NCBI GenBank assembly: GCA_001630475.1
Contig: KV419438.1
Span: 252,287-289,075 of the forward strand
Origin: Sistotremastrum niveocremeum HHB9708
Taxonomy: Eukaryota > Basidiomycota > Agaricomycetes > Sistotremastrales > Sistotremastraceae
Reading direction: 5' to 3'
Length of the DNA: 36,789 nt
Positions 2,123 through 24,366 of the stretch are shown one piece after another (position 1 is the stretch's first letter; each line of letters starts with the position of its first letter). Under the pieces are notes generated by a model. The model was not told the origin of the DNA, ran no database searches, and saw nothing but the letters and a program-made list of their open reading frames with translations. Made by a program: the position numbers and the translations under genes.

Positions 2123-2620
2123 AGATGATGAGAGATAAGTGTGAGATGGGGGATTTTTGAGCCTATCGTCGTGTCTTTATATAACCCCCCAGAGCTACCA
2201 AAGCGATTTCGGATCAATTCGGCGCAAGGGAGAGATCGAAAGAAGCCAGAAGTTTCGGGAGGAATCGATCGATGATATCCCCGATCTCGAGCGTCTGAGC
2301 AGATCAAGAGGAAGAAAGTGCGCATATACGGTATACACCTGTCAAATCGGAAAGATGTGGAGGAAGGGAAGCACTGGCCGATGGCATCGGCTTACAGGAC
2401 TTCGGAAGACCAACCTAGCGATCGTGGAGAACCCGAAGCAAGCGGAGGACGTTCCGAGGATCGAAGGAGAGAAGGGAATCGATCGAGAAGAGATATGCTT
2501 CGTAGGCGCTCTCGAGAAGACCTGTCAAATGATTCAGATCGGACGATTTGATCAATCGCACCTCGGATCATGCTCTTCAAAGAGATCGCGCGAAATTCAG
2601 GCAATATCAAATATATTTTC
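2123..2620 (-). promoter_or_regulatory. Promoter cassette of unit 1
   Basis: TATA box at 2176-2184 (TTTATATAA on plus) flanked by a C run. The purine-rich leader on plus (2123-2153, AGAGATAAGTGTGAGATGG) reads CCATCTCACACTTATCTC in the sense strand. The GATC-rich block to the right contains CCTGTCAAAT twice (near 2340 and 2522). The cassette is nearly identical for about 190 bp to that at 8162-8360, including the segment AAGAAGTCAGAAG/AAGAAGCCAGAAG and the string GAGGAAGAAAGTGCGCATAT. TATA and leader are seen directly; promoter function is inferred from their repetition across the array. Confidence 0.6.
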
Positions 2621-2639
2621 AATACCAAGACGATCCCAA

Positions 2640-3207
2640 AACTGGCAGCATATAAATCCCTCACATAAATTCTCGGCACTCACGCACGGCAGCCAGCTGC
2701 ACTCCCGAGCGATTCACCGTCTCTGGTAGACCTCTAACCTTCGTTTCGTCTCTCGCATGGGTGTAGAAGTTGATTCCGCTAGCTCACAACAATTAGCAGG
2801 TGATTATTCGAGAGCAGGAAGAAAATCACATACTGAATTGTGGCACCATTATACTAGCAAGAAACCGATGCAGATTCCTGGACAGTTGTTGACAAACGTC
2901 GTACAATTGGCGTCGGACTCTGGAATTTTTCTTATGAGTGTCAACATTGCGAGCGAAAGCCTGAGAACGTACATGCTTGGGTGACCAGCCTCTACATGAC
3001 AGCACCTATCAATAGCGTAGCTGAGCGGCCAGCAACAGCCCTACAAACCGCTTCGATCAAATACCACAACAAAAGGAACAAATTGCATACCGCAACCACA
3101 GAGCGATGAACGCTAACGGAAAACTGCCACGGCAAGAGCATGACGGAGGGCGAAAAGGGAGTGAAAATAGAATGTGAGGGAATATTAGGCTCGTCGGGTG
3201 CTGTTAG
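2640..3207 (-). other. Body of array unit 2 (short, about 0.6 kb)
   Basis: Region between the leader of unit 2 and the regulatory block of unit 1. The sense strand after the leader carries no early ATG in a long frame. The 3' end near 2615-2650 reads TCTTGGTATTGAAAATATAT, resembling the TTGGAxATATTAT element that opens the conserved V-R-N module in other units. No open frame could be defended here, so it is either a decayed copy or non-coding. Confidence 0.35.
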
Positions 3208-3590
3208 GTGAGATGGGGATAGATAGAGATAGATGGGGAATTCCCGCTCTCGACGAGCTGGTTTTATACTCCCAGAATCAAAGAACTCAGACTTCGGAGC
3301 ACTCGGGACGGAAGTATCAATCGATCGATCGTCGGAACGAGACACGATCTCAGCTCGATCGACAGGTTGCCCGAGATCTTCGGAGCACATGGAAGATCTT
3401 CAGCACGTTTCCGGAGATCGAGATCGAGACGTCGAGAAGCCAACAGCCAGAAGCAAATCATGTGGCAGCGATCGAGAGACTTCGCCTTTGGCTTTTAGAT
3501 CGGGATGTGAGACTAAAGGGGCCAAGGATCGGCGACAGAGGTTTGCCAAGGGAAGTTCACCGGACTCGGATCCGAGATCGCCCATTATCG
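3208..3590 (-). promoter_or_regulatory. Promoter cassette of unit 2
   Basis: TATA at 3262-3268 (TTTTATA on plus). Leader at 3209-3240 (GATGGGGATAGATAGAGAT on plus). The bipartite upstream module is at 3320-3369: TCGATCGATCGTCGGAACG, then after about 17 bp CGATCGACAGGTTG. A stop-poor frame runs across the GATC-rich DNA in both directions and is not taken as coding. Confidence 0.6.
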
Positions 3591-4179
3591 ACACAAAATG
3601 AATAATATTTCCAAGAACGCATTGTCAGAAATACATGGATTCTTGGCGGTGTTCAGACGGAACACATCGAGTCCAAGCTATGTCACAGGGGTCTCCACCT
3701 TCAGGTGCTCGCGAGTCTTCAAATCGCCAGTGCTTGGGCGATGGATGCTAGAGCAGAATGATCGTCAGTATCGATTTGAAAGATAGGGAGACACAACATA
3801 CTATCTGTCCTAGAATCAGAGTTGATGACACGGTCCTCTCATCCCAACACGAGCCGCAAGGGATTTATCACCTCTGTGATTATCGCGTCAAAAAGGGGAC
3901 AGTGGCAAAGAGGAATTAGATCTAGAAGACTCACTGTAACAAGAGTACAGGGACGGTGGACGGACACGGTGGGAATATTCTCTAAAGTTCAACAAGACAT
4001 GCTATGCGCCATAGTCAGTATTCATCAGAAGAGACATGCAAGATCCAATGACGTACGTTCCACGTGTGAAGTCACCAACTCATCCGTGGAACTTCATATC
4101 CACCATGAGACCCGCGTAGAAAGACAAAGCACGCGAGGTAATAGCCTCTTAAGACTGTGCAATTATCCAAGAGAGGAAG
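3591..4179 (-). other. Body of array unit 3 (short, about 0.6 kb)
   Basis: Lies between the unit 3 leader and the unit 2 regulatory block. Its left end (near 3600) reads CTTGGAAATATTATTCATTT in the sense strand, the same TTGGA-AT-rich element seen before the V-R-N module of other units. The body shows GTGACTTCACACGTGG and several possible donors, but no ATG-started frame of useful length. Decayed or non-coding copy; no function assigned. Confidence 0.35.
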
Positions 4180-4470
4180 GGAAAGATGGAGATTAGATGA
4201 GGAACGACGACTTGGAGGGCTGGCTTTATACTCCAGGACTCTGAGGAGATCGGAAAAGGGGGCGTGGATCGATCGATCGTCGGGATGGATGGTCGTCCGA
4301 TCGACAGGTTGAAAGAAGTTCTCGGAGGAGCGGAGGAGCTCGGGACGATCATTCAAGTTGAGTCTTCAATTGAGAAAGGCGGTCGGGAACGATCGTTCGT
4401 AGCTCCTGCGGTCAGATCTCGATCCGGTGCTCGCCGGAGGATATGGGATTCTGGGCAGAGGTTCAGGAGA
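4180..4470 (-). promoter_or_regulatory. Promoter cassette of unit 3
   Basis: TATA at 4224-4230 (CTTTATACTCC on plus). Leader at 4181-4203 (AAAGATGGAGATTAGATGAG). A clean bipartite module is at 4266-4311: GATCGATCGATCGTCGGGAT followed about 15 bp later by CGATCGACAGGTTG. Further GATC sites continue to 4436. Confidence 0.6.
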
Positions 4471-6048
4471 GAAAAAAAGTGACGTTGATGAGACTGGGAT
4501 CCGAGATAATCGGAGTGATTTCTTGTCATCATCGCGAGCTATATTTGTTGAGATCATATTCAGCGAAGAGACGAGAAACGAACGAGTCATGATAAGCAAC
4601 TCACATAGAGAGGATACATCAGGCGAGCTCTAATATTCCCACTAACCTTCTTCTCCCATTCTGCCCAGCCTACACCTTCGAAGCCAATGAAACTCCGAGC
4701 AAAAAGTAGTCGTCCAGTTGATTTCCAGAAGGCCCCGTCTGAAGTCCTGGATTTTTTACGTGTGCCGTCATTGAGTTCAGTCCTGGTACATCTCGGGGCA
4801 CGGTCGTAGACATCGAATAGCTGACGACTATGAGGCGTAGGGATGACGCTTGAGGGCTAACGACGAACTTGAAGAAATCCAAGTCGAACGCCTTTCTTCG
4901 TCGCCAGAATACTATGGTGAAGGATGCGGTGGAGAGAGGATTTCAGCTGCAGGACGTGAAACGGAAGCTCTGATTTGGAGCTGATTCCGATCCGGCGGAA
5001 CGACGAATTATTCTGGAGGCGAAGCTGGATGTAGTGCTACAGGCTGAAGCGTGGCGAATCGGGGAATAAGCTCAAGCAGAATACGGAACGAGCATTCCAA
5101 GCTCACCATTGCTCGCATCTCGGATTTATACATTATACAAAACAATCCAGTGAAGCCGTGGCCTCGAAAGTCGAGAACGCGAGACGAAGGGAAGGAAGCG
5201 GAGTTGCAACCTCCCCCAAGCTCAACTACAAGCATCGATACGTAACACAACCTCGGACACTCAGTCCTTTGTTCTATTTATGCTCATATTTCTCTTCAAC
5301 GGAGGAAAGCCTTATCATATCACGCAGATTATTTCAGACCATGGGAAACCTGATTATATCCAAGAGCGAATGTACAAAATTCAGCTAACCTTAAAACCCT
5401 TGACCACGTGCATGTCATAACACTGATACAACCGCTTACTTCTCAACGCAATCCCTCGTATCTAAGTGGCATTAGCATACATCACAAGGCCTATCAATAT
5501 AAAAGCTTGTACTCACCCGGATTTTCTACGCACGGCTTCGTCCGAAGTTCCACACAGATTGCTGAACAGGGGATATATAGAATAGGCAGATGGTAAATGA
5601 TATCGTCGCAAAACTGTCGTGTTGATGTCGCGCTTCGGGCACGAGGGACACTGTGATATATTAGTCAGTATCCTGAAATATAAGTAACGCAAGACATACC
5701 TTAAGTTGCACCGTCACATCAGACACCCAGCAAACGACATACGAAGGAGCAATCCAAATCCACAGGACTATCATAACCGCGGCACAAGAGGAAGAAGGCC
5801 AAAATAGCTGTGACCGCTCTGCTCAGATATAAATAGGCTGAACAAAGAGGAAAACACTCACATAGCCAGTCAGCGTCGGCAAATTTATTCGCGCGAGAGA
5901 GTACGCGTCGCTTGTCGTCGCCAGAGCCGAAAAAACCGCTCGTGACACCGAGGAACTAGGACCCCGAGAGCCAAGGAAACGAGGTGTCTCTCTCCGATTC
6001 GACAACTTCCAAGAAGAGGGGAGATGCAAGACGACAGGGAAGAGGGCT
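4471..6048 (-). other. Body of array unit 4 with decayed protein-like exons
   Basis: The leader-proximal exon (6029 to about 5861) is open in one frame (PSSWKLSNRRETPRF...) and ends at TAT|GTGAGTG, but it has no ATG. A GGTATGT donor (near 5700), a CACAG acceptor (near 5655) and a CCGG|GTGAGT donor (near 5520) indicate spliced structure. At 5375-5300 the V-R-N module is recognisable, but the arginine codon CGA is TGA (tca on plus at 5335-5337). A frame of about 115 codons lies at about 5012-4670. Its TIVFWRRRKAFDLDFFKFVV resembles VIIFWHRSSSRTDVSRFEAF of the unit near 20 kb. Probably a pseudogene of the family. Confidence 0.4.
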
Positions 6049-6560
6049 CCAGATGGGGATAGATAAGTGGGAGATGGGGAATGTCGAAGGTTTGATGAGG
6101 GTTATATAGTCCTCACATCAAGCAAAGACCGGAAGATTCGGGCGATCGTCATCCAAAGGGTGGAGGAAATCGGAACGGCGGGGTCCACGCCAAGCCTTAG
6201 AGTTTGTCGATTGGGCAAGTTTGTTTCCGAAGATCGGATAGTGCAGCTCATCGCCGTCATCGGGAATGCATGGCACATTCAAATTGAGAGAAGGGACAAG
6301 AGGAATTGGAGGAACAGAGACGCTGAATGGAAGAAGCATGAATAATCCGATGGGAGCGGCCAGTCGATGGGTGGATGACAGTCTGGTAGACAAGAGGAGA
6401 GGAGGCCGAAGTTGGTATACCCCCAGCCTTGAAGAGAGTCGATCGATCGATCGTCGGAAGGATCTGTTCGATTGACAGGACGCAAGGAGATCTAGGAAGC
6501 GCTCGGAGAAGTTCCATGGTTTGAATTGAGACGCTCGATCATGCGCGAGTGCTGGAAGTG
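6049..6560 (-). promoter_or_regulatory. Promoter cassette of unit 4
   Basis: TATA at 6101-6107 (GTTATATAG on plus). Leader at 6051-6081 (GGGGATAGATAAGTGGGAGA). The bipartite module is unusually far upstream, at 6439-6480: TCGATCGATCGATCGTCGGA, then TTCGATTGACAGGACG. A CGATCTCGATTCCGTGCCCT-type element follows near 6566-6585. Confidence 0.6.
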
Positions 6561-8161
6561 CGACGAGATCTCGATTCCGTGCCCTCAGTTCAAGAAAGGA
6601 ACTGAGCGCGTACTCCGAGCGGGTACGTCATTCCGGGTGAGCTCAGATCTGACTAGGTCCTACAGATACGCATTGGGAATATGTGTCCCATCTAGATGGC
6701 GCATGGGTATTAGTGACTGCAAAGGAATGGGAATTCATGTATAACACGCACTTGAAGTTCCCACTTGTCCATGACTCCATCTGGATTCGCCGTACTCCTA
6801 GGACGAGTCTGATCTTCCCTCGAACCCGATCCCGACCGCAACTTGGCACAACGAGAACTGGGTAATAAATCGGCTGATACCGCGAATCAATTCATGTTGA
6901 GCGACCGTCGAGTCTCACAATACTCACAATGTCATCAAGCTTCACGGAAAATATTTCTATGATCGATTCAAGGCTGCGTTGGAATGACCACTCGCGTTGT
7001 CGGACGACGAAGGAGAATTTTCGAGTCCCTGAGGCGCTGAGGTGACATCGAGATGCAGTTATCCCTCGACGTCGGGGAAGCGCACAATAGGTCGGGATCG
7101 GTTTCAAGGTGGAAATATGAACGCTGCTACTGTATTCTTTTCTGGCCCATCATCAAGAGTGATGACTCGCAGAGGCTATCCTTCGGCTGAAGAGCACCAT
7201 TGTGAGAAACAAAGCTTCACGACAGCAAGAGAGTTGAGGGGCCCACTACTCACCAAATATTAATCAAGTTACATCGCAAAACCATCACTCAACCGATTCA
7301 CCAAAGTCGTATCGAAGAAATAGCAAAAGCGTCGAAAGGCAGCTCGAGAGCGGAGTTCCAACGCGCGTTTCCTGAGGTTGAGATCTTACGTAACCGCTCT
7401 TCGGCCTTCTTCTCCGTTTGTTGATCTCGCTCACTCAATGGTATATTTCGAACAATCATGATTATATATTCATCCAAGAGCTGCTATCCAAATCACAGAG
7501 CGAAGCGGCGTTTCAATCTAAATTGATATGGTCTCAATTGCGGATCTGTGGAAGCGTCGAGAGATTCCAGGGTAACCTCTCCGTGCTGCGAAAATGATGA
7601 TGTCAGAGCAATGAAGGTATGGAGGGGATTTCACACGAGCCTCGTTCCTGTCTTTCGGGGAAATCGTCTCAAATGAGGCCAAGACTCACTCTTCCCCACG
7701 TCTAATCATCGTCAGCTATCAATTCAATGATTCCGCCGAACAGTCGTTGACTCACAAAGCTTCAGCATGCCGTCGGGTCGAAATCCAACTGTGAACTAGG
7801 ATGAGCGAAGATGAGCATTGTGAATTTCTCAGCGCGATAAGATTATGACATTACTCACGTTATAGGGGAGAAATGGCACGGTGCAGCTCGGCACGCATCA
7901 CGATTCTCCAAGAACCGCACGCATCACTTGACATTCCTCAGGAGCTCTATTCCAAATAAGCGATCATAATTCGAGAAGAGGAGAGAATAGAACCTTCAAC
8001 AGTTACAGGAAAGCAAAACTATTCGGCTGGCTGATCCGTGCGAATCCACTCGTCGATAGATACCCATCATATCCTAGAGTGAGACGGGATAGGGAGCATT
8101 TTGGAACAGTGTACAGGAGTGTCATGTCGGAGGTTCTAAGACAAGAAATCAGCGTTGTCTA
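6561..8161 (-). pseudogene. Body of array unit 5, multi-intron paralogue with small ORFs
   Basis: Closest paralogue of the unit at 10.9-11.9 kb (long alignable block, see findings). Near the leader an ATG-started frame, 8125-8003, encodes 40 residues including YLSTSGFARISQ. The LSTSGF string recurs in frame in units at 10.2 and 18.1 kb and as RTSTF at 15.8 kb. Several GTGAGT donors with matching acceptors (introns of about 55-65 bp near 7860, 7755 and 7690) imply tiny exons. The V-R-N module at 7474-7385 reads DEYIIMIVRN...SERDQQTEKKAEERLRK, very similar to unit 7. It then goes out of frame before the F-E-L-R part. Family function unknown; likely a frameshifted or incompletely understood gene. 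Confidence 0.42.
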
Positions 8162-8600
8162 GATGATGAGAGATAGGTGTGAGATGGGGAATTTTGAGCG
8201 CGTCGTCGTCTCTTTATATATCCCCCCAGGACACGGCAGTCGGATCCGGAGGAGATCGGGGCAAGGAAGAGATCGAAAGAAGTCAGAAGTTTCGGGAGGG
8301 ATCGCTTGATGACATCCCCGATCCCGAATTTCTCAACGGATCAAGAGGAAGAAAGTGCGCATATATGCACCCCATCGTTGAGCTGGAGGAAAAGAAGCAT
8401 GAAGTCTGGGATCGATCGGCGTCTTATCTTCCGATCTCGGGCCTTAACCTGTCAATCGTGACGATACTGAAGCCAGCGGAGTACCTTCAAGCGCTCACGG
8501 AAGAGAGGGAAACGATCGAGAAGAGATGTGCTTCGTAGGCGCTCTCGAGAAGACCTGTCAAATCATTCAGATCGGAACATTTGAATGGAGTGAGCAATAG
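8162..8600 (-). promoter_or_regulatory. Promoter cassette of unit 5
   Basis: TATA at 8212-8220 (CTTTATATATC on plus). Leader at 8164-8192 (ATGATGAGAGATAGGTGTGA). It matches the unit 1 cassette almost base for base from the leader to about 190 bp upstream, including GATCGAAAGAAGTCAG. Two CCTGTCAAT/CCTGTCAAAT sites are at 8448 and 8552. Confidence 0.62.
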
Positions 8601-9955
8601 AGTGAGCTCGTTCGACGATAGAAACACCATTACTATTACTGTACTGCCCGTTGAGCTGCTCAGATCATATCTAACTACGTCCTTCAAAGATTAAGCGGGG
8701 CTCTATCATAGGATAGCGGGTGGAAGTTAGTGACGCTCAAGGCATGATCACAGGCGGCACACACGCACTTCAAGTTGTCACAAATTCTCTCATACTGCCC
8801 ATCTAGATCTCTTGGCCAAACTCTCTTCCCCTCTCCAAGACAATTGCGGCACCACGAAGCGAGAATTTGGGACTGACCGGAGTGACCTGCTGGTGATCAT
8901 GCCAATGCTTCCGGACCGGTTCAGAGTTGATTGTATAATCAATTACGACTCTATTCATCCTCGCAGTCCATCCCTCTATGGTTTCCCGACGTTTATATCC
9001 GAGATTAGGATAGCTGAGGAGCGAAACCGAGCAGATGAAGTTGAAGGCGAACAATACGATGAACGATTGTACGCTCGTCAGCGCATTCTGGCGCGTAGTA
9101 GTGGAAGGGCGACATGAGGTGACATCCCCGAATCAAAATAATTGCGTTTAGGCATGACTCGAGCTCGGCTACTGTTGTTTATAAGTGGGAGGCCAGCGTC
9201 ATCCTGCCGCTGAGAATTCTCTGAAGGCCATCCACGTGAGCCACAGATTTTGGCAAGCGAAGGAGTAGGATTCAAGAGCTCACGTTCACCGATCCCTTCG
9301 AACTCGAACATTCACAGAGATCAACCAGGAAGGTCTTTTCGCAGTTTCCACGAACGCATCGAGTGACGGACAGCGAGCGGAGTTGGAAAATAATATGTAA
9401 TCTACGTTCGGCCGCTCTTGTTTGTTGATCTACTAGTATCACTCCCGTTGCGTTATTTCGGACAATCACAAGTATATTTATATCCAAGATACAAAGTACC
9501 AATCGCCGTCTACACACCATCATCGAAATAGGGCGACCTGAACCCAGTCACATAAGATGGGCCAGATGCGTTCGCATCAACAGGGTCGCTCATGTATACC
9601 CACTGCCCTGGAGAAAGGATGTATTAGGATTGTGCAAATACGAAAGAATGTATGCGGGAACGTACCGTCATCCAGATACACCACACATTCAAGCTCTGGA
9701 ACTTCGGCATACCTTGCTGCAAAAAGCCTTAAGGCTGAGACGCAGAGTCGTTCAGCGATGTGAGCGATCCTCGTAGTCATTGTAAGTGATGGAGGATACT
9801 ACACGAATGGGTGAATGAAGCACAGATGATAAAGAAAGACGACGCACCGAAGACTCTGCACCCTACATATGCTAGAAGGCTCGTAGCTCGACACCTCCCG
9901 AAAATCCTGAGAAGACGCGTGCCCAGGATGCGTGGGAGCATCTCTTGGATTCAAC
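8601..9955 (-). other. 3' part of array unit 6
   Basis: Downstream part of unit 6. The V-R-N module is at 9484-9377: LDINILVIVRNNATG, then DQQTRAAERRLH and FQLRS in one uninterrupted frame, with no stop through about 9272. This is the best-preserved reading frame of the module, although no ATG of its own is seen. The frame at 9523-9272 ends just past a GTGAGC (near 9280). A 67-codon frame at 9780-9577 (internal GGTACG donor near 9665) is another candidate exon. How these exons connect to the leader-proximal ORF at 10237 could not be settled. Confidence 0.38.
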
Positions 9956-10237
9956 CTATGACGACAATGCTTTGATGGGCTATAAATGGAGGGATGAGCT
10001 TGTCGTGGTCTAGAGAAGGAGCGTACTTACATGTAGCCACAGTACGGCACTCAATCCACCGGCACATCGAACGACTCTCGACGACGCAAATCGAGACTGG
10101 CATGATCCACGAATCGGCGAGCAAATGAGAAACCCCGACCAAGCCAGCGTAAAAGCCCGACGTTGACAGATAGAGGAGGGCGAGAATACAAGCCAAAGGT
10201 CCAAGATGTAGGAAATAAACAAGAACTTATGGTACAT
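9956..10237 (-). CDS. Small hydrophobic protein of array unit 6 (tentative two-exon model)
   Basis: ATG at 10237 is the first ATG after the TATA box, about 60 bp downstream of it. Exon 1 (10237-10031, 69 codons, phase 0) starts MYHKFLFISYILDLWLVF, which looks like a signal peptide or membrane anchor. It continues as a Cys/Arg-rich stretch to LWLH|GTAAGT. A 51-bp intron (10030-9980) with a TTTATAG acceptor leads to an 8-codon exon ending in TAG at 9956, giving 76 aa. A competing frame over the same DNA (LALLYLSTSGFYAG...) matches other units better but has no ATG. Family and function unknown; which frame is translated is uncertain. Confidence 0.33.
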
Positions 10238-10890
10238 GGTATAAATGGGAGAAGATGGGCGAAAGATGAGGAATTTTGATGAATTCGCTGGTCCTTTTAT
10301 ACGCCTCAGCCATCGGCACAGTCGGAGTTGAGATCGGATGAAAGGAGGAAGACATCGAGAAGGTGAGTTTCGATCCAAGCCCTCTTTACGAGATCGGCAA
10401 GATCGGGAGACACTGAGTTCAGTTCGGGTGACCGTTACAGTACAAGTCTCGTCCCGGCTCTCGTTCGTGCCAAGCCTTGAAGTTCCAAGATCGAGACACA
10501 TTGCCTCAGGGATCGGAGGGTGGAAGATATTGAGAACCCGGTCGAAGCATTCAAATCGAGTTCGGATCGGAAGATGGCTTTGAATGGCTTTGGAATCCAG
10601 AGACGCCGAAGAGAGTACGCATCCGAAAGAATCCGTCAATCGATCGTCGGAGGAATCCGTTTGACTATTGACAAGGGGAGGGATGGCAGGAGGAAAGAAG
10701 ATTGCGGAGAGGCGATCCGGGTTTCAAGAGGCGATCGATCGAACGTCGGGAATTGTTTCGATCGACAGGACGGAAGAAGTCCCCAGAGACGCTCGCGACG
10801 ATCTTGAGGTCCGAAAGAAGAATCTCGATTATGAGACGGTCCCGACTACGGCGAGATCTCGACTCCGTGCCTTCAATCTCAGCGGAGTGA
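10238..10890 (-). promoter_or_regulatory. Promoter cassette of unit 6 with two upstream modules
   Basis: TATA at 10294-10302 (CCTTTTATACG on plus). Leader at 10241-10275 (AAATGGGAGAAGATGGGC). Two copies of the bipartite motif stand in tandem: 10638-10675 (CAATCGATCGTCGGAGG, then ACTATTGACAAGG) and 10731-10770 (GCGATCGATCGAACGTCGGG, then CGATCGACAGGACG). A 209-codon minus frame spans this DNA only because GATC-rich sequence is poor in stops. Confidence 0.6.
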
Positions 10891-11894
10891 GCGGACTCAC
10901 TTGGTCGGCCGAATGACGAAGTGGAATTTTTGAGACCCCTAGGCGCTGACGCGTCGCATTGAGGTGCGTCAATTTCTCGATGTCAGAGAAGCTCAATATG
11001 GGTGTAAATTGGTCGTAAGGTGGAAATATGAATGCTGCTAGTATTTTCTGTCCCATCATCGAGAGGGATGACTGGTAGAGGTTATCCGTCTGCTGAAGAG
11101 CGTTGTGAGAAATGTACTAGTAGCTTCACGACAGCAAGAGGGTTGAGGGGTCCAATAGTCACCAAATATTACAAAGGTACATCGTGCAACCATTCTTGAA
11201 GTGGGCCAGCAAAGTCGTATGGAAGAAACAGCACAAGCGTCGAAAGGCAGCTCGAGAGCGGAGTTCCAACGCGCGTTCCCCTGGCTAACATCTTACGTAA
11301 AGTCCCTTCGGCCGTCTTCTCCGTTTGTTGATTTCGCTCGCTCGGTAGAATATTTCGAACAACCATAACCACATATTCAGCCAAGAGTTACTATACATAT
11401 CTCACAACGCCATCAATAACGCAATATTCATACTCCTGCATCCAAAGCAAGCTAAAGCGAAGGTCGCAACATCGCTAACCCTTCTGCCGCTTCGGAAAAC
11501 ACTTGAACGGTATCAGAGCAATGAAGATACGGCGAAAATTGCACACGAACCACTCCGTGATATAGATTCTTGAATGTCGGATAGGTGCCCGTATACCTGA
11601 GACCCGAGCACCTATAATAAATCATGCTAAATGTAACTCTTCGTTAGGCTAAGAAACACGGAGGAAATAGGAAATGCGAAGACTGACCGCGATTCTCTCT
11701 TGATCCGCATAAACTAGACACGTTGGATCTCGCGGGAGAATATCTGCACGCCCTTGCGCTTGGTCAAAGAGATCCGACGAGAGGAAGTCAAACACGAGTA
11801 TGACGGCTGCTCAGAAGCTGGAATGCGGACGGAGGACGGTAGACTGGATCCAAGAAGAAGGTGATATTCAAGATGACCCGTTACCGGCGCAAAT
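10891..11894 (-). pseudogene. Body of array unit 7, paralogue of unit 5
   Basis: The V-R-N module at 11381-11292 reads AEYVVMVVRN...SERNQQTEKTAEGTLRK, in frame with unit 5 and differing mostly by conservative changes. A second conserved exon at 11059-10900 starts MMGQKILAAFIFPPYDQF (ATG) and ends at GACCAA|GTGAGT. Its counterpart in unit 5 (7107-6930) is shifted in frame. The leader-proximal frame (about 11860-11714, HLLLGSSLPSSVRIP...) lacks an ATG. Some exons are therefore preserved while others are broken. Product unknown. Confidence 0.42.
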
Positions 11895-12170
11895 GTGGAG
11901 AGAGATAGGTGGGAGATGAGAGACATCGATGAATTTGCTCGCCTTTTTATACCTCTCAAGCATCGGAGGATCGGAACGATCGGCGGAAAAGATTGAAGAG
12001 GAGGAAGATCTCGGAACCGCGAGTCTCGATCTGATCCCGTGTTGAGGTGAGGGCTCACCATTCGGAGCCATTGGAGTCCGAAGATCGGGGTGGGGCAGAG
12101 ATCGGATTGCATGTTGAACGCTCAGATCTGACTATGCCCCGATCAGAAGATCGATTCCGATCTTTGACAG
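11895..12170 (-). promoter_or_regulatory. Promoter cassette of unit 7
   Basis: TATA at 11944-11951 (TTTTTATACC on plus). Leader at 11897-11925 (GAGAGATAGGTGGGAGATGA). Upstream are GGATCGGAACGATCGGCGGA (11958-11977) and a CTTTGACAGCCTGAG site near 12160. The strict GATCGTCGGAA pair is degenerate here. Confidence 0.55.
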
Positions 12171-12923
12171 CCTGAGTGGAACTTTTTTGGGTCATTTTCC
12201 TCTCCGATCTCATCCTCGGCGGCGGTGTCAACGTTCGTCATCGAGTGGGTTCGATCCGGGGATTTTCACTACTGTTCGCACAGTCCTTTACCGTTCAAAC
12301 ACTCATGGTTCAGCAGAACGAAAACATGATATTTCCAAGACATAATGCAGTGGGCACAGTCCTTTACCGTTCAAACACTCATGGTTCAGCAGAACGAAAA
12401 CATGATATTTCCAAGACATAATGCAGTGGATAGATCATATACTACATAGCCCTCGTCTCCGCACCCGCACTACGAGACTACTTCGGTCTTGAGAAACTTC
12501 TAAACAAGTTCATCGACATCGGGAATCACTTCTATAAGATGGTGGAACAGAACATACGTGTGACGCTCCTGATCATGCCCATCAGACATAATGTCTCTTT
12601 GAACGTCTGTTGCCAAGTTAGCTTCGTGCAGATTCGAGGCTCGTGAACAGAATATTACTTACGGAAGTGTCAGCGGAACTCTTCAATATTTACAATCGAC
12701 GAACTAGGATTCGGGGCCTTGCCCACCCACCAAGTATAAAACTTGAAGTCAGCGCTCGAGAGACTGCAAAGAAAATATCGAATACCTTAGATCACCCACT
12801 CCATCAAAGCTGGGACTCTCGTACACGCCGCCGAATAACCTTGCAAAAAATAGATTTATGAAGGCACACACGGAATGGCAAGATGGGCTGGTGAATTCAA
12901 GAAAACGTGAGGAGAGCGGGAAC
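12171..12923 (-). other. Body of array unit 8 containing a perfect tandem duplication
   Basis: Sense-strand signals include a GTAAGT donor (near 12662), a CAACAG acceptor (near 12612) and other short-intron signals. The 72-codon plus-strand frame at 12643-12861 is antisense to the unit and not taken as a gene. The 3' end contains a perfect 76-bp duplication. No family exon with an intact frame was found; probably a decayed copy. Confidence 0.35.
12278..12429. repeat. Perfect 76-bp tandem duplication (2 copies)
   Basis: Copy 1 is 12278-12353 and copy 2 is 12354-12429, each beginning GCACAGTCCTTTACCGTTCA and ending ATAATGCAGTGG. I see no difference between the copies, so the duplication is recent relative to the very diverged array around it. 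Confidence 0.95.
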
Positions 12924-13140: not shown

Positions 13141-13597
13141 CCACAGATATGCAGCAGAGATAATATATTTATCCTATCCAAAAATGCTCCAGCGATGACA
13201 GATTACTCGCCAACCCCTACGCACGAGTCTCTCGCCCCGGTAGCACTTGTTCCTTGCTGCCTTTACGACCTTACCCACCAATATTCAATCAACTGAGATA
13301 ATCAGTTGTTAGCACCGAAATCTAGTGAATTGAGAAGGAAGATAAACTTACCCTGTGCGCAGAGATCGAATCACGAAAGACGGGGTGACTTCAAGACCGC
13401 CAAGTCATTAGACTGATCTAACAAAGCTCAGCGGCGTTATTAGAATATATAACTCAAGGCAAAATGACATACCTCATTGTCAGAAGGTATGCAAAGCCGC
13501 TCCAAGACTTTGGCGGCACGTATCCCGTCTCCTAGATGGTGGGAAGGCCGTTCGAGGCTCGGGACGAGGAGGAGAAATGTATAGTTCAGATGACTTT
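13141..13597 (-). other. Body of array unit 9 (short)
   Basis: The leader is followed by a frame (FLLLVPSLERPSHHLGDG...) that aligns with the STFLLRAHDP region of unit 11 but has no ATG. The first ATG (near 13472) sits at ACAATGAG|GTATGT, and splicing of the 55-bp intron (acceptor TTGTTAG near 13415) meets a stop soon after. A second intron (GTAAGT donor near 13352, TCTCAG acceptor near 13294) is clear. The transcript looks spliced but not obviously translated. Confidence 0.38.
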
Positions 13598-14010
13598 AGA
13601 TGGGGATAGATGAGGAAACGAGTGCTTGAACGCCCTGTATTTATATTCTCCAGGACCGAGGAAAGCGGACGGAAACGCTCGATCGTCGGAAGGAGTGTCT
13701 CGATTGACAGCTTGACCGATGTTCTCTCTGGATCGCCAAGAGTAGAAGATTTTGTGCCATTGAGCGATGTTATCGGAGGAGGAACTCTTGAAAAGGAAAT
13801 TCGATCATCGGAGAGATCTCGATCGGCGGGATGATCGCTCCGATCGTTCGATCGTCTCGATCGACAACTCTCCTTTCGGAATAATCGGGGCACGATCGAA
13901 GTTCCTTTTTGAGTGCGGGATCGACCTCGATCTGAGCGACCGAAAGAGGAAGCTTCATGGAGACCGGGGCGATCGGAGGAGAAAATATCAAGAGTGCGAG
14001 GCATGACGCC
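13598..14010 (-). promoter_or_regulatory. Promoter cassette of unit 9
   Basis: TATA at 13639-13646 (TATTTATATTC on plus). Leader at 13598-13615 (AGATGGGGATAGATGAGG). Bipartite module at 13678-13718: GCTCGATCGTCGGAAGG, then CTCGATTGACAGCTTG. A degenerate second copy (GATCGTTCGATCG, then CGATCGACAACTC) lies at 13840-13870. Confidence 0.6.
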
Positions 14011-15733: not shown

Positions 15734-15817
15734 CCAGCTTTGGGGGTCATGAGCGCGGAGGAGGAATGTTGAAGTTCGTAGACAAAGATACAAGAAGAAG
15801 CCATAGATCAAAATCTG

Positions 15818-16480
15818 AGATAGACATAGATGGACGTGAGATGGGGGAATCGTAAAGAAGGTCGAGTCCTTTATATACCCCGCGGTGGAGAATGTGCCAA
15901 GACTTGACAGTTGCGATGATTGAATGTGAGTGCGGGGATCGTCGGATGGCAGAGAAGGATTGCTTGACGAGTTGGGGCGATCCGGAAGAAAGAAGCACAT
16001 GAAGGAATGGGGTGCTAAAAGATCGGAGCACTGAATCGGGAGGAGTGAGCAACTGAGTTCCGATCTCGATCCTTTGAGCATCACGATTCACAAAGTAGGA
16101 AGACGGGGTCGGGAGAAGCACGAATGTTGTCAGATCGACGAATCACGGTTCTTCCATTGACAGTTTGACAACTTTGAAGGGGAATCAGCGTTGCGATTGA
16201 GGGTGTCGATCTGATGGTTTGGCTGGATCAATTGGGCGTGATCGGAGGCAGAATTCTGGGAAAGGAAACTCGATCGTCGGCCAAGGTTCGATTATCGATC
16301 ATCGGAATGACCATCCCGATCTTCTCAATCGGCATCTTGAAGGATCCGCGATCTTCTTCCGGGGTGATCAGGGGAATTTGAAGAGTTGTCCGAAGACTGG
16401 GGTTATGATCGAGTGCCATTTTAAGTTACTTGGAGGGAATGAAGTTCGATTGGCGCTCCGATATCGGAGGTGATGACTCG
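15818..16480 (-). promoter_or_regulatory. Promoter cassette of unit 11
   Basis: TATA at 15870-15877 (TTTATATACCCCGCG on plus). Leader at 15818-15848 (GATAGACATAGATGGACGTG). About 50 bp just upstream of TATA, ending in AAGACTTGACAGT, match unit 12. GATCGTCGGA at 15937-15946, CCATTGACAGTTTGAC at 16154-16169, and CTCGATCGTCGG at 16270-16281. Confidence 0.6.
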
Positions 16481-18160
16481 ATTTGTCTACCGCGATATTT
16501 GAGAATTGACCATAGATAATGTATATCTCCGGCAGATCTAGATTGAAGGTTGGCTTGAGATGACTTTCTTGACCTCGCGAGGCGGGAGGCCGTTCGATTC
16601 TGGGATCGGGAGAGCACGGTGAATTATTGTTGGAACACGACTTGGGCGTGGATGGATGTAATTGAGGACGTAGGCTTCAGTTATGAATGACCTAGTCTTT
16701 CGGAGAGTTCAGCACAGAGAGCTCAACTTCGAGCTTGGATGTAGATTCACGATAGGAACGCACCACGCTATGGCCTCGTATTCTCAGTGGCATTCTATAT
16801 TCTCGATTCATCATAGAAGCTCGCTGCCCGGATGCTACTTTGTTAGATGAGGAAATCGTAAAAGGATATATGAGGGCTCTGATGAAGACGTGCTCGTCAG
16901 CACGTACACTCTTGCCAATAAGACCAGACGCACCACAGGACATATTACTTCTCCCCTTCCCTCACATCCAAGTCCAAGCCAAAGTATTAATTCTCCACAA
17001 GACCTGCGCCTGTGAGAAAGCTTCACCCTTCCAACATCACAGACATGGCCGACAAGAAATATTCCGTGCTTTGCGCCACGACGGAGCGAACTTGCGAGCC
17101 CTCAGGCTTGAGATTTCTGCTACCAATCGTTCAGATAATCGAGGGGTTATTTAGAATTGTTGAGCTTTCCAAGAAGGATTGACGACGAAAAGCAGCGAAG
17201 AGAGCAGCACAGCGGAGTTCGAAGTCTCCGTCCGCTCGAGGCACGTAATAGCCACGTTCATCTTCGACTGAGACGCAAAGACCAGAATTTCGATCAAAAT
17301 ATATGGTTTTATTATTCAAGACTGTACAGCTAGGTACCCGCTGGCTCCTATCCCAAGCTAACACACCCGAATACCCGTCGAACACTCACAGAGCGCTTCA
17401 GGACACCCACCGCAGAGAATTCGCATATCACAACAATACCAGTGCTCTCTAACGGACAACCTCTACCCTAAAGATCTCTTGACAATTATATCCCCAAGAG
17501 TCGTCAAAGACACTATTGTACGGTTTATCAGACAACGCAAGAACAACCTGATGAATGAGAACGAACCACAGAAGAGACCGAGTTCATTACAAACTGGGGA
17601 TAACAGATGCACAAATTTCCGCCGAGGAGCTGATGGCGCTCGCTCAAATATTCCGACCCTATGCGTGGAAAGCGACCTAAACCGACAATCACGAATTAGA
17701 AATTCTCAAGAGCATGACGAACGCACCGGAGTCACCATTACATCCTCAAACAACTATCAGTATGGCCAGACCGGCAGTGCTTCCTGGGGTTCGCGAGCGT
17801 CAATCCCACTGATTTTGTGCACTAGTGTCGAAGACGTACGAACGGAGAATGCACTGTCGTCTTCCAATGGTCGGAACAAGGGTACTAGTCGCCTTTTACA
17901 GACCATCAGTCAATACAAAAACTGATATATAGTGAGAGAACGTACTGGAATCACCAAAATGCAACTTAGCCCTCTATATTTGAGGAGCCGACGGCATTAA
18001 GTGCATCGTCCGACTTTCCTCGTCGCTGACGGGGATCTCTGGGATATATAGAATTGCGAGATGAGATAATGATTGGTCGCCAGAAATGGTCACGAGGACG
18101 GGCCAGAAAGCCTGAGGTTGATAGAGGAAGATACAAGAAGACTCAACCTGTTTGAACAGC
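16481..18160 (-). pseudogene. Body of array unit 12
   Basis: Leader-proximal frame VFLYLPLSTSGFLARP... (about 18140-18000) is homologous to unit 11 but lacks an ATG. An AGTACGT donor (near 17945) and GTAAAAG acceptor (near 17898) are seen. The downstream exon is interrupted by stops. The V-R-N-type module at 17304-17131 (IYFDRNSGLCVSVEDER... GDFELRCAALFAAFRRQ) is open over about 58 codons, ending in TGA at 17131. In unit 11 the same position has ATG; here it is ACC. A 148-codon plus-strand frame at 17479-17925 is antisense and discounted. Bases 16481-17130 show nothing else I can defend. Confidence 0.4.
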
Positions 18161-18600
18161 TAGATAGAGATAGATGGGGGAGAGATGGGGAATTCGTGAC
18201 AGAGATCGAGTGCATTATATACCCCGCGTTGGAGACTGTGCTAAGACTTGACAGTCGCGATCATGGATATCGAGGGCGGGGATCGTCGGAAGTTAGAGAA
18301 AGAGTTCTTGGCGAAATGGAGAGATTCGGACGGAGAAAGAAGCACGATTCAAGATCGGAGCGCCGGGAGAGGGAGCGTTGATATGGGAGGATTAAGGAAC
18401 TGAGGTCCGATCTCAATCTTTCTCTTCATCTTCGTCTTCACAACTCAATAGAGAAGAAGGGGACCCGGGAGGAGCATCGCCATATCGAGAGCATGCGGAT
18501 CCGCGATCGCTGTCGATCACTCGCAGCGATCCTCGGAAAGTCTTCGATTGACAGGTTGGCGCCTTTGAAGGGCGGAGAGCTTGGCGAGCGAATAAGATGA
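18161..18600 (-). promoter_or_regulatory. Promoter cassette of unit 12
   Basis: TATA at 18213-18221 (CATTATATACCCCGCG on plus). Leader at 18162-18192 (GATAGAGATAGATGGGGGAG). GATCGTCGGA at 18281-18290. TTCGATTGACAGGTTGG at 18543-18559, followed by CCTTTGAAGGG, which also recurs near 16175. Confidence 0.6.
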
Positions 18601-19197: not shown

Positions 19198-19269
19198 TCA
19201 TCGGAGTTGAAATTCTTCCCGTCTTGTGATTATGGACGACTGCACGTAATTTCGAACAAAAAATCTCAT
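19198..19269 (-). pseudogene. Truncated V-R-N module of unit 13
   Basis: An ATG-started frame of 23 codons, MRFFVRNYVQSSIITRREEF, then Q-L-R and TGA (19198-19200). Where other units read L-R followed by a sense codon (CGC TGT, CGC TAC, CGC TCG), this copy has CGA TGA. The homologous sequence continues past the stop (VALCDACRL...), so this is probably a nonsense-truncated copy or a terminal exon that ends early. Confidence 0.45.
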
Positions 19270-19282
19270 AGTATTATCCAAT

Positions 19283-19663
19283 CTAGTCGTACATAACTCT
19301 CAATGACTGTAATGAACCAAAGCGCTTCATATCTCTCTCCCCGACGCGAGGCGCGAAGCCATCCACTACCGAACCCGCTAAATCGATAGCACACTCTCTC
19401 TCTTCGTTACCGCACTTCTCCGGAATACCAAATATAATATAATCTTCTGGAAGGAAAGTCTTGTACGGGCCGCCCAAATTTAACTGAGCTCGGTTATCAG
19501 ATGCTGAAACCGGGCAAGAGTGACGAATGGACACGAACCGTTGTTGGACGTTAGAAATTGGGGTAGAATACGGAGCGTGGACGTTGGCAATATTCACCAC
19601 AAACGACTTGCAGCCTAGAGAGACTGAGCCGACGCGATAGACGTCACACCCCTGAAGTAACAT
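19283..19663 (-). CDS. Hypothetical 126-aa ORF, 3' part of unit 13
   Basis: ATG-started open frame MLLQGCDVYRVGSVSLGC..., with five cysteines and a C-terminal GFAPRVGERDMKRFG. It directly follows a CTTCAG acceptor-like site, so it could equally be a 3' exon beginning GCDVYRV. That exon would be phase 0 and does not match the phase of the upstream four-exon model (19713-20340), leaving two alternatives: separate ORF, or exon with one frameshift. An ORF of this length is not rare by chance in the window, so confidence is modest. No family recognised. Confidence 0.3.
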   Translation of the reverse strand: MLLQGCDVYRVGSVSLGCKSFVVNIANVHAPYSTPISNVQQRFVSIRHSCPVSASDNRAQLNLGGPYKTFLPEDYIIFGIPEKCGNEERECAIDLAGSVVDGFAPRVGERDMKRFGSLQSLRVMYD

Positions 19664-20340: not shown

Positions 20341-20480
20341 GTCAGCGAAACCATATGAAGTGTCATGGAAGGATTGGGTGACGACGCGGGAGCAGGAGGG
20401 CGATATGAGCGAGTCCCAACAGACTCCAGCTTTCAACCGGAAGACAAGAAAATACAGTGACGCAAACCACAAAAGATACG

Positions 20481-20990
20481 AGATAGATGGGGATAGATGG
20501 GGGACTTTTCAAGGAATGCGAGGGCCTTATATACCCCCAGAGAACGCATAGGCTCGGGGAATTGACGACTCTCCGATCGCGAGACTCGGACCGGGCTTGG
20601 CGCTCGGGAGGATATTTGACAGTTTAGCGGAAGAGCAGGAAGATCTCGGGAGAAGCACAGATCGGAGTCCTTGAAGATCGGGTCGAAGATTGGAGGAGGT
20701 TGGGTGGAACTGTCAAGTGAGTCCCGATCTCGATCTGGGGAAGTCAATGCAAGTCAAGAGCGGAAGATCGAGCGATCAATAGTTCGCGATTTTCGTTCGC
20801 CTGAAGCGAGGCTCGGAGGGAGGATTCTTGAGTGAGATAGAGAAGCTTCCAGAGGACGGCGTCGCCGATATTTCAAGGTGAGCTTCGAATATCTTCGATT
20901 GACAGTTTGACAGTTGCGGAGGGGCTGCAGATCTGGTTGTGGAGAGGATCAGCCGCGATCATTAGAAGAGGGTTTGGTAGCTCACCATCT
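20481..20990 (-). promoter_or_regulatory. Promoter cassette of unit 13, last minus-strand unit
   Basis: TATA at 20525-20533 (CCTTATATACCCCC on plus). Leader at 20482-20502 (GATAGATGGGGATAGATGGG). TTTGACAGTTTAGCGG near 20606, and TTCGATTGACAGTTTGACAG at 20894-20913. No good GATCGTCGGAA copy. Confidence 0.58.
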
Positions 20991-21640: not shown

Positions 21641-22125
21641 ACTTTCCTAATATAGCGGCGATCGAGACGATCGAATCGATCGAACGACGGAATTAGCATG
21701 ATCGTCGATCACCTCTTCCGAAACTCCAAAATCTATTGGTCCCCGATCACTCGATCTGGCAGATCATTTCCCGAATGCGGAATCTTCTTTCCCTTTCGAG
21801 GCCCCCTTGTGTTCTCAGACTTCCCCATTGTCTGTGGGTGTTCAAATGCGACGGCGCCGCTCCTCGAACTGTCGATCGTGCGATCTCAAGCCTCGGAGTC
21901 GTGTAGGGGCCTATGATCCTCCCGAGTCCTCCGACAGACCGCGAGTTCCATTCAATCATCTTCCGGATGCCAAGCAAAGTCTCCGATCGACTGCCATTTT
22001 CACCCTTTCATCGGATCCTGCATGATCGGCTGAGAGCTGTTGGCTCAATTTCTAGGGTATATAAGGACACCAGAACCGTCTAGATGCCCCATCTACTTTC
22101 ATCTCTGTCCATCTCAGCTGTTCTC
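21641..22125 (+). promoter_or_regulatory. Promoter cassette of unit 14 (plus strand)
   Basis: TATA at 22056-22064 (GGTATATAAGG). Leader CCCCATCTACTTTCATCTCT at 22088-22107 and CCATCTCAGC near 22112. This is the same core as the minus-strand units but in opposite orientation. The block 21655-21715 is GATC-rich (GATCGAATCGATCGAACGAC). The region between 20,533 and 22,056 is thus a head-to-head intergenic space. Confidence 0.55.
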
Positions 22126-23730
22126 CGCTGGATAATTTTTCTTGATTCTTGTCTTCATCGCTATTTTTCTTGCCTATGCTACTTTGCCTTGATCCTCCAT
22201 GCGCATATTCCGTCTTTGAACCAGCTGTCTTTCAAGTTCCAAGATCGGTCACGTCAATGGTCTTTCAGGTAGCGGCATGATTTACTTGTTTTGTACGTCA
22301 TTTCGCTGTCGATCCCAAGTGAGGTTTTCATCAGTGTCGAATTTGATCTTGATTAAACATGTCATAGAATGCTTGCTGGGATTCTCTGGAGGTGATCGGT
22401 ATTGTGGTGTTGCGAATCATGACGGCATTGCATGGTAGCTCCTTGAAGATGCAAGTCTGTTTGTACTGTCCAGCTCTGTTTGCTAATCAGCCTCTCAGTT
22501 CCGAACTATTCTTGGGTATTTCATAACTGAGTCAAACTTGGAGTTAACGTCATCTGGAAGTATCTCTGTTGGCAAACCGGTGGGCTTGGCATATCATTTC
22601 CAAGTTTTGTCTACTTATTGTTCTTTCATTCTCCAGCGTCCTCGTTTGACTGTACATCTGTGACGTTGAGCTCTCGCAATGCGTATGTCCCTCATCATCT
22701 CGCTTCGGTGACCATATCATCTTCCCTCTTTCAATGACTTCTTTGAAATTCTGATTGTCTTATCAGTCCGCGTATCGCACATCGAATGCAGGAGCTTCGA
22801 TTTCTCGAAGGTGCGGCGTCAGAGCAGGCAACGCAGTCACTATCATGCGTTGTAAAAGGTATATGCTCGCTTGTGACTCACAAGTTGTGAGAGTGATGAT
22901 GCATCCAGTTGAGAGTGGCAACGGAATGGTGACGTGGTGTAGTGAACGTCTCCATTAGGATGCGCTTAGTTTTGTATCGTAATCTTGGATACCTCGGAAA
23001 CCCAATCGTTCGAAAATATCCCTAGTGTGAAGCCAGTGAGATGAGATCGCCCTGGTAGTAACATCTCAGAAGTACTTACAACGACTCTCCGACGCCGACG
23101 AGCTTCTTACATCTCAATATCTCACCGAAAGCTATGAGATCAAGGTCTAGTTGTGTTTGAGGCCGGAAGCAAATAAATCTGATGTCGGCTCAGAATCGTC
23201 TCGCCGCGCGCTTCTTTCTCCCTACCACCGCCACCTTCAACCAAGGCATTCTCCCTCTGCTCTCGAACATCTCACCGCATGACCTCCTCCTGATCACTCC
23301 TTGATACCATATGGAACTCTAGAGCGGTATGGCTTGAGATCGACCCCACGAAAGCGGCGCTCAAAGATTACACAGGAAAATTTCTCAGCTTCGTTGAAAT
23401 TTCGTTCCGAGCCACCTCGGACGTCCTAAACTGAGGATCGCGCTATGTCAAGCATCATCATCAACTCTGCATCCACTTCGTGACGGAGCCCATTCTCTCT
23501 AAATCTATCGTTTGACCGATGACGTGGCATAAACATCCTCCTTTGTTAGTTGAGATTGCTATTGGATGATCACCGTGGTAAGCCCTATTTCTTATCGTAT
23601 CGTTCGATCATCCTCTCACTAGCTTTGTCGGATAGACATCCTATCATCCCTCTTCTCAATATCCAAATCTGAAATCTGGTCGTTTCCCGTGTCCTCGACT
23701 TTCGCATCCACCTCATCCACATTCTCCGAC
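22126..23730 (+). other. Body of array unit 14 and trailing sequence
   Basis: Just after the leader a hydrophobic frame (RWIIFLDSCLHRYFSCLCYF) ends near a TTTCAG|GTAGCG donor (about 22268). Its only ATG (22084) lies 20 bp from TATA and is probably upstream of the transcription start. AATAAA occurs at 23170. I could not align a V-R-N module here. Bases 22300-23730 show no gene I can support. Confidence 0.3.
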
Positions 23731-24366
23731 GTGCCGCGATTCATACATCCCCCCTCTCCCCCTTGTCAGGACGGGGATCGCGATGAAAGCTCAGCTGGAC
23801 TCGGATCGTCGATCGTAGGAAGGTGACAGGTACGTTCCCCTTCTGCTTCTTCGATTATCCGACCTGACAGCTCCCTTCCCAAAAGCGGTATCTTCTGTGC
23901 TTGATTGGGTTACGATCGTCGATCGCAGCCAATGCATCCTCAAGATTCTCCCGCGATCTTCGTGTGACGATCTTCTCCTTCCGTGTCATCTCGAGCCGCC
24001 CTGGAACGAGTTGACGAGTATATGGAGAACGGGAGCAGAGTAGATATGAGATCGAGATCCGGAAAATGAAGATCGATCACACCCAATGCGACAACTCACT
24101 TCAGTTGAAGCTCCTGTCCATCAACCGAAGGAGCTTCCCCGCGATCATCGGACTCGTCTTACGATTCAAGACATCTCAACTCCACATCCTTCCGAGAAGC
24201 TCAAAAAACTGAAGACCTGTCGATCGAGCACATTCCGAAGATCGAGAGAAGCATCATTCCGAGTCTTCCGGTCCTCCGGCGTCTTGGATTTGCAGTATAA
24301 GAACAGGACTTGCTACCCTCGTTCTCTTCATCTTTCCCCATCTCTGCACCATCTCGTAACGACGAC
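23731..24366 (+). promoter_or_regulatory. Promoter cassette of unit 15 (plus strand)
   Basis: TATA-like GTATAAGAA at 24295-24303. Leader TCTTCATCTTTCCCCATCTC at 24326-24345 and CACCATCTCG near 24348. Upstream, GGATCGTCGATCGTAGGAAG with GTGACAGG (23804-23830) and CGATCGTCGATCGCAG with CCTGACAG (23871-23930) are two worn copies of the GATCG...GGAA / TGACAG pair. Confidence 0.5.

Follow-up and report, generated by a model that had tools for sequence, protein, structure and literature searches.

Clusters of short, promoter-led cassettes recur in the genome of Sistotremastrum niveocremeum HHB9708, and with a probability of roughly 0.58 we read them as clustered, co-regulated, spliced and polyadenylated-looking noncoding RNA genes that may have spread by duplication and by reassortment of promoters and bodies. 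Each cassette would be a complete small RNA polymerase II (Pol II) gene of ~0.85 kb with a noncoding RNA as its product: a common promoter (GATC-rich block, GCCAAG near -90 in most clusters, TATA and a C/T-rich start leader) would drive transcription, and the transcript would be spliced at about two introns and terminate at a TTGGATA..AATA..TTCGAA module. Clusters would expand by duplication, promoters and bodies would recombine, and selection would keep the start, splice and end parts of the transcript as the intervening sequence drifts. The sequence shows common ends, strand-specific splice signals, bodies that lack a coding signal, clustering, and differing promoter and body partners; we infer that the units are transcribed and jointly controlled by one regulator, and we also infer their function.

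The window, a 36,789-nt stretch of contig KV419438.1 (positions 252,287 to 289,075), had been given a preliminary description as an array of at least 14 cassettes, 12 on the minus and two on the plus strand, and all 14 were recovered by regular expression, alignment and a profile. This sequence-only profile (R1) was trained on the 14 promoter cores (TATA plus C/T leader). Units are named here by their approximate TATA starts. The minus-strand cores are those of units 2183 (2112..2183, 48.8 bits), 3268 (3205..3272, 46.6 bits), 4229 (4166..4234, 38.8 bits), 6108 (6039..6112, 44.7 bits), 8220 (8149..8221, 52.0 bits), 10301 (10232..10305, 44.2 bits), 11949 (11887..11953, 40.5 bits), 12986 (12921..12989, 35.3 bits), 13645 (13575..13648, 41.6 bits), 15877 (15806..15879, 44.3 bits), 18221 (18155..18223, 44.0 bits) and 20533 (20464..20535, 40.7 bits); the plus-strand cores are those of units 22058 (22056..22126, 43.6 bits) and 24296 (24293..24365, 39.2 bits). 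The TATAs at 4229, 11949 and 24296 lie outside the regular-expression hits and were shown by alignment and profile. Minus-strand neighbours are 659–2344 nt apart and the plus pair 2238 nt, in agreement with the 0.65–2.3 kb spacing described before. Within the window the training sites scored 35.3–52.0 bits (E 2.5e-10 to 1.4e-15), and the best score elsewhere was 7.8 bits (E 0.099); since R1 was trained on these cores, the independent test lies in matches elsewhere in the genome. A TATA with a fixed leader is present in 14/14 window units and would suit the Pol II-type promoter of a lncRNA gene.

The preliminary description had proposed a genome-wide profile search. Profile searches of stretches read from the same 34.7-Mb genome, together with pattern searches, showed that the core recurs beyond the window. 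At E <= 0.01, R1 gave 75 matches in 20 other stretches (89 with the window included) and 14 further matches in three later stretches, a total of 103 matches on eleven contigs in 267 kb read. A strict core pattern applied to the whole genome gave 65 matches against 0 for a reversed control, 64 of them on nine cassette-bearing contigs and mostly grouped; a loose core pattern gave 137 against 4. Each group has one dominant strand, with mostly uniform orientation. The genome thus has many arrays besides that of the window, which goes beyond what had been envisaged. The unit set used below comprises 85 of the 89 R1 matches, the four excluded being two at stretch joints (L012:9961-10000 and L006:9953-9996) and two that scored low (14.0 and 13.8 bits).

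The order of elements within a cassette is a GATC-rich block, GCCAAG near -90 (in most clusters), the TATA and, 30 nt later, a CCCCATCT/CCATCTATC leader. The GATC-rich upstream block reported earlier was borne out by CGATCG, with 201 copies within 400 nt upstream of the 85 TATAs and 17 copies within 550 nt of body; an example with CTGTCAATCG (repeat family D9) lies at 13676..13710 on the minus strand in unit 13645, and CTGTC[AG]ATCG was found in 10/14 window units. An upstream block near 25324, which adjoins no R1 match, appears to be a remnant. Upstream GCCAAG occurs 64 times in sense versus 30 times in antisense, with 43 of the 64 sense sites between -100 and -50, and is rare in the window (4/14 units), although present near -90 in most clusters. 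Promoters of PacC/Rim101-regulated genes carry GCCARG sites (PMC10455529); GCCAGG, the alternative PacC core form, was not enriched upstream (5 sense, 5 antisense).

Splice signals are biased towards the sense strand across the 85 units, with GTRNGT motifs numbering 417 in sense versus 163 in antisense and candidate introns 2.15 versus 0.52 per unit. In paralogue alignments, with pairs counted from both sides, GTRNGT was kept in 26/36 sense and 1/14 antisense cases. The bias was weaker in held-out clusters (motifs 33 vs 17, candidate introns 19 vs 8).

The cassettes also share a 3' module, TTGGATA..AATA..TTCGAA, for which a profile gave 55 matches, 55/55 on the array strand, a bias partly built in by the 29 sense-strand seeds of the profile; in held-out clusters the module lay on the array strand in 7/7. 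A lncRNA gene would be expected to give a spliced and polyadenylated transcript longer than 200 nt, and the cassettes carry signals for this in their candidate introns and 3' module. The profile was used in place of an earlier regular expression that fitted loosely in 42/85 units. Most matches (51/55) lie 551–1449 nt past a listed TATA; the other four fall outside the usual range, three at 1764, 3418 and 3741 nt from a listed TATA and one with none, and two of these were placed by hand ~0.7–0.9 kb past the two excluded joint cassettes. In the window, modules that also served as profile seeds lie on the minus strand at 7443..7493 (unit 8220, 727 nt past the TATA, nhmmer E 5e-5), 9451..9494 (unit 10301, 807 nt, E 9.5e-5), 17285..17329 (unit 18221, 892 nt, E 3.3e-4) and 19246..19298 (unit 20533, 1235 nt, E 6.5e-6), and on the plus strand at 22967..23018 (unit 22058, 909 nt, E 7.8e-3). 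Beyond the body of unit 6108 there is a AACTCCGCT element (5197..5205, minus strand; pattern with <=1 mismatch), found again at 7357, 9384, 11265, 14846 and 17219 and, with a single mismatch, at 19208 and 21281 (positions are highest coordinates); further one-mismatch matches are scattered, and the element is mainly specific to the window's cluster. The AACTCCGC element at 21281 has no minus promoter upstream and appears to be a remnant.

A gene-like layout, in which candidate introns are followed by a 3' end, is also what would be expected if the units encoded very fast-evolving short proteins or secreted peptides in several short exons behind one promoter type, a reading that we consider unlikely. 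Tandem families of fast-evolving protein genes are clustered, co-oriented and intron-bearing, with diverging duplicates; the cassettes resemble them in clustering, orientation, candidate introns and divergence and differ in having no coding signal. Spliced frames averaged 71 aa versus 69 aa when shuffled and exceeded their own shuffled mean in 41/85 units, whereas a coding control (one host-like locus, a putative gene model) gave 163 aa versus 43–102 aa in five shuffles. Codon-use scores, referenced to seven loci, were 5.5 in sense, 5.2 in antisense and 4.4 shuffled versus 15.0 for simulated spliced genes, whose 10th percentile of 4.9 overlaps the cassette scores. The first ATG has a purine at -3 in 37/83 cases, and indels are out of phase in 36/44 cases in bodies, similar to 135/158 upstream. 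Only 1/24 paralogue alignments had a sense coding score with p <= 0.05, in a pairwise test that detected 6/18 simulated spliced genes at omega 0.5 and 4/18 at 1.0, and a frame kept between paralogues, as in protein-coding multigene families, was not found by tests whose power is low for fast evolution. Signal-peptide-like ATG frames, present in 11/85 units versus 7.2 +/- 2.3 shuffled, lean towards a protein product; Pfam gave no above-cut-off match in ten window frames. A mating-pheromone gene array was also considered and rejected, since a CAAX scan of the whole window gave four frames that do not recur from cassette to cassette. Open-frame length, codon use, the context of the start, the phase of indels and substitutions between paralogues all fail to give a coding signal in the bodies, and in lacking a conserved protein product the units match lncRNA genes, with room left for fast-evolving short exons. 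Of the two suggestions made earlier, spliced noncoding RNAs under selection for transcription or processing are the better supported (strand-specific splice signals, 3' module, no coding signal); a fast-evolving product family is weakened by the absent coding signal and retains some probability because the pairwise test is weak for short exons at omega >= 0.5.

Alignments of paralogues (E <= 1e-10), divided into 50-nt bins and with every pair entered once from either side, confirmed that downstream sequence is barely alignable: aligned columns per bin number 2216–2871 from -150 to +50 of the TATA versus 273–526 from +100 to +700, and climb again to 442–811 from +700 to +950. The claim that promoters are more conserved held in that they are alignable far more often, but not for identity, which in alignable bodies (0.58–0.88) is not lower than in promoters (0.69–0.78). 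A promoter partner is present for 79/85 units and a body partner for 48, and the best promoter partner differs from the best body partner in 29/47 units having both. Unit 8220 is an example on the minus strand: its body (7046..7641; repeat families D4, D7, D11, D15 and D20) is common with that of unit 11949 (10957..11551; repeat families, alignment) at 77.6% over 500 columns, and its upstream region (8247..8584) is common with that of unit 2183 (2210–2551; D6 85%, D12 94%), so that its best body partner is 11949 and its best promoter partner 2183, the bodies of 8220 and 2183 being different. Local duplication is clear in the cassette clusters and, with the apparent remnants near 25324 and at 21281, would suit a decaying gene family, in which arrays descended from protein-coding ancestors have lost their frames and keep recognisable promoters and ends through recent duplication. 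Plain decay, however, would not yield ends and splice motifs that outlast the alignability of bodies, and the excess of promoter over body partners, the kept splice motifs and the one-stranded 3' module make this history quite improbable.

That the cassettes are pieces of a transposable element or dispersed repeat is very improbable: the promoter and 3' end of a cassette lie within 1 kb, solo LTRs likewise combine the two, and transposons lie nearby (a copia frame at 29915–32980 in the window and a DDE_1 transposase frame at C42:16055-17098, flanked by two cassettes), but scattered copies with a common body would be expected, whereas the cassettes are grouped, mostly in one orientation, with candidate introns on one strand and bodies that are not common, and a search with 19.9 kb of array, which scores the best candidates and left the query's own place unlisted, gave matches at C80 and C83 places alone (E 0.001), which also speaks against transposon or gene copies in the bodies. 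The concern raised in the preliminary description, that the cassettes might come from inside a common dispersed repeat, can be set aside on the same grounds of grouping, mostly uniform orientation and the lack of a common body. The end of the window is the end of the contig, and the telomere repeat (TTAGGG)4 was found nowhere in the assembly.

Known RNA classes gave no match. Neither the window nor 15 of the 23 stretches read elsewhere in the genome gave an Rfam match, no tRNA was found in the window, and C/D-box-like pairs were not in excess (1 sense vs 3 antisense, 85 units); a snoRNA host gene was rejected on the Rfam and C/D results, H/ACA being covered by Rfam only. Fold stability over the first 450 nt of 40/85 units had a mean z of +0.36 in sense and +0.66 in antisense, hence no excess stability. 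A functional RNA product gains no support from RNA structure, Rfam or C/D boxes.

If the cassettes are noncoding RNA genes, our leading guess is that transcription at the cassette loci, or the delivery of RNA to the RNAi machinery, would matter rather than the RNA sequence. RNAi genes are present in the genome, with RdRP and Piwi-domain loci numbering at least five each. A tentative and rather unlikely extension is that ~100 or more spliced RNAs, each with a promoter of its own, form a fungal equivalent of piRNA gene clusters or mark chromosomal sites by means of RNA; their sequences would be free to diverge because transcription at the loci, or feeding into RNAi, is what counts.

No equivalent of the cassette layout was found in the open-licence literature searched; the nearest systems are compared here. 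Nematode type-I piRNA (21U-RNA) genes, with a ~28-nt primary transcript (PMC6436959), are likewise many separately promoted, clustered RNA genes with a common upstream motif and differing products (PMC6436959, PMC11262695); the cassettes differ in being ~0.85 kb long with a TATA, candidate introns and a 3' module, and this predicted anatomy (introns, 3' module at 0.55–1.45 kb) argues against a ~28-nt primary transcript of the type-I kind. In fission yeast, three meiotic lncRNA loci, sme2 among them, promote homologue pairing, and lncRNA transcription at set chromosomal loci is the acting part there, as it may be here; those three loci are not arrays with a common promoter (PMC6898681). In the mushroom Ganoderma lucidum, lincRNAs are intergenic and are described as polyadenylated, spliced products of Pol II, which the cassettes, with a predicted Pol II promoter and splice and 3'-end signals, would resemble; in the available text the word 'tandem' is absent, 'cluster' occurs only in a reference title and no common promoter is described (PMC4059649).

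It is usually the conservation of its products that reveals a multigene family, whereas what the cassettes have in common is the signals for start, splicing and end, and in most cases not the body. With switch-like promoters ahead of a stretch that looks ready for splicing and 3'-end formation and has no protein signal, they could make up a large family of noncoding RNA genes, so far undescribed. Annotation that seeks proteins would miss them, so such cassettes may sit unnoticed in related genomes. If transcribed, they would be a natural case for studying whether selection acts on transcription or processing itself and how arrays spread, and for asking about small-RNA supply or chromosome marking in fungi.

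The window is the terminal 36.8 kb of contig C45 (289,075 bases), with which it shares its end point, and the number, strand and spacing of its cassettes stand as in the preliminary description: 14 in all, 12 on the minus and two on the plus strand, with neighbours 659–2344 nt apart. R1, a sequence-only profile from an alignment of the 14 promoter cores, recovered these at 35.3–52.0 bits, with everything else in the window at or below 7.8 bits, and also matched elsewhere in the genome. At 12278–12429, two copies of a 76-bp unit stand head to tail with 100% identity, a duplication far younger than the cassettes around it. A AACTCCGC element (21281) and a block of the upstream type (25324) both lack an adjoining minus-strand promoter and look like remnants of lost cassettes. 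The array is adjoined by a Copia-type retrotransposon frame of 1021 aa (29915–32980, minus strand; RVT_2, rve and retroviral SH3-like domains), 3.8 kb from the contig end; the stretch 33000–36000 at that end is AT-richer (GC 0.41–0.42), with several diverged copies of one repeat apparent by eye.

Across the genome (34.7 Mb, 111 contigs), a strict core pattern gave 65 matches (control, 0) and a loose pattern 137 (reversed control, 4), the 137 including double counts where TATATAA fits at two offsets. All strict matches but an isolated one on C59 (64/65) fell on C9, C27, C42, C45, C54, C68, C74, C80 and C83, mostly grouped, and additional cassettes on C33 and C37 were detected by R1 and among the loose-pattern matches listed. 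At E ≤ 0.01, R1 gave 89 matches in the window and 20 fetched stretches (236,789 bases) and a further 14 in the 30,000 bases of three stretches added later, counts that are no measure of genome density because the stretches were chosen where the patterns matched. The units analysed were 85 of the 89, and the figures derive from one genome and depend on the stretches chosen.

The earlier view of barely alignable bodies held in terms of aligned columns, which peaked at −150 to +50 of the TATA box and were about sevenfold fewer in the body; promoters are likewise the more conserved part in aligned columns, but the identity of alignable bodies is no lower. A promoter partner was found for 79 of the 85 units and a body partner for 48, and the best of each differed in 29 of the 47 units with both; in window unit 8220 (named, like the others, by TATA coordinate), the promoter region matches 2183 and the body 11949. 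The cluster pairs C33/C37 (stretches L019 and L020) and C27/C42 (L018 and L021) have several collinear stretches in common at ~68–83% identity, and segments therefore move between loci. Within otherwise diverged units of C27 (L018) and C54 (L015, L016), pieces of 70–180 bp are 90–99% identical, perhaps through recent small insertion or conversion, and at C9:215001–335000 (L005–L014) inter-cassette distances often alternate between ~1.1–1.4 kb and 2.7–3.3 kb, a pattern suggesting duplication of two-cassette blocks.

The GATC-rich upstream block was confirmed, CGATCG occurring 201 times upstream vs 17 times in bodies. In the core, the TATA box is followed ~30 nt later by CCCCATCT and CCATCTATC; 41 units also have a TTCTTG box at +60 to +180 (antisense strand, 1). 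GCCAAG is oriented and positioned, with 64 sense sites within 500 nt vs 30 antisense, 43 of the 64 at −100 to −50; at least one is present in 59 of 85 units but in only 4 of the 14 window units, where CTGTC[AG]ATCG replaces it in 10 of 14. For the pH regulator PacC, the core motif given in the literature is GCCARG (PMC10455529), but PacC would be a lead only, since GCCAGG is not enriched upstream and most window units lack GCCAAG.

Downstream, GTRNGT density at +200 to +700 was 0.4–0.64 per 100 nt in sense vs 0.07–0.15 in antisense (417 and 163 in total out to 2 kb), candidate introns numbered 2.15 vs 0.52 per unit, and splice-like motifs were retained in paralogue alignments in 26/36 sense and 1/14 antisense cases, each pair being counted from both sides. 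Beyond the body lies a 3' module (TTGGATA, an AATA-rich part and TTCGAA), whose profile, seeded by 29 sense-strand instances, gave 55 matches at E ≤ 1, 55/55 on the array strand and 51 at 551–1449 nt downstream of a listed TATA box; the exact pattern matched twice genome-wide, both times on cassette contigs (control, 0). Three held-out clusters agree: 3'-module matches were on the array strand in 7/7 cases and 462–1113 nt downstream of a TATA box in 5/7, GCCAAG lay ≤200 nt upstream in 9/14 units, and, with a weaker bias, splice-like motifs numbered 33 vs 17 and introns 19 vs 8. At the sequence level, the units are a family of small Pol II-type genes with common ends and mostly free bodies, spread through duplication and reassortment.

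Longest open frames in 84 units averaged 97.1 aa in sense, 97.4 in antisense and 88.6 in shuffled sequence; best spliced frames averaged 71 aa, vs 69 in splice-site-keeping shuffles and 65 in antisense, and exceeded their own shuffled mean in 41/85 units. Sense coding scores reached p ≤ 0.05 in one (a C33 internal repeat, p 0.025) of 24 paralogue alignments, which take in upstream parts too, and in 3/3 simulated uninterrupted coding controls, the omega-1 control solely through absence of stops. Run on exons shortened to 108 nt, this scoring detected 18/18 simulated spliced genes at omega 0.2, 6/18 at 0.5 and 4/18 at 1.0; it thereby rules out conserved proteins, whereas the units may still encode fast-evolving ones. 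Codon-use scores, referred to seven transporter loci, averaged 5.5 in sense, 5.2 in antisense and 4.4 in shuffled sequence (maximum 9.9), vs 15.0 in simulated spliced genes (25/42 above 9.9). The first ATG had a purine at −3 in 37/83 cases and opened a frame of 23 aa on average (shuffled, 26), and indels were out of phase alike downstream (36/44) and upstream (135/158) of TATA. Signal-peptide-like starts numbered 11 vs 7.2 ± 2.3 in shuffled sequence, and ten window frames had no Pfam family above cut-off, with two weak matches (E 0.099 and 0.012).

We favour spliced noncoding RNA genes, at a probability of roughly 0.58, put slightly lower because a frame that passes the Pfam cut-off for DDE_1 transposase (C42:16055–17098, L021:8055–9098, minus strand) is flanked by two cassettes and because alignable bodies equal promoters in identity. 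The nearest known system in logic is the nematode type-I piRNA genes, whose transcripts differ in being ~28 nt. LincRNAs are already known from a mushroom (PMC4059649), with no tandem arrays in the text examined, and no equivalent of the cassette arrays was found among the papers listed by a literature search.

Five RdRP and five Piwi-domain loci in the genome make an RNAi route possible, and a second model is offered by fission-yeast lncRNA loci that promote homologue pairing (PMC6898681). Folding of the units showed nothing unusual and a non-exhaustive search gave no long matches of the array to genes or transposons, results that favour neither model. As noncoding RNA genes, the units would be regulated in common and may act through transcription at their loci or by supplying RNA to another pathway.
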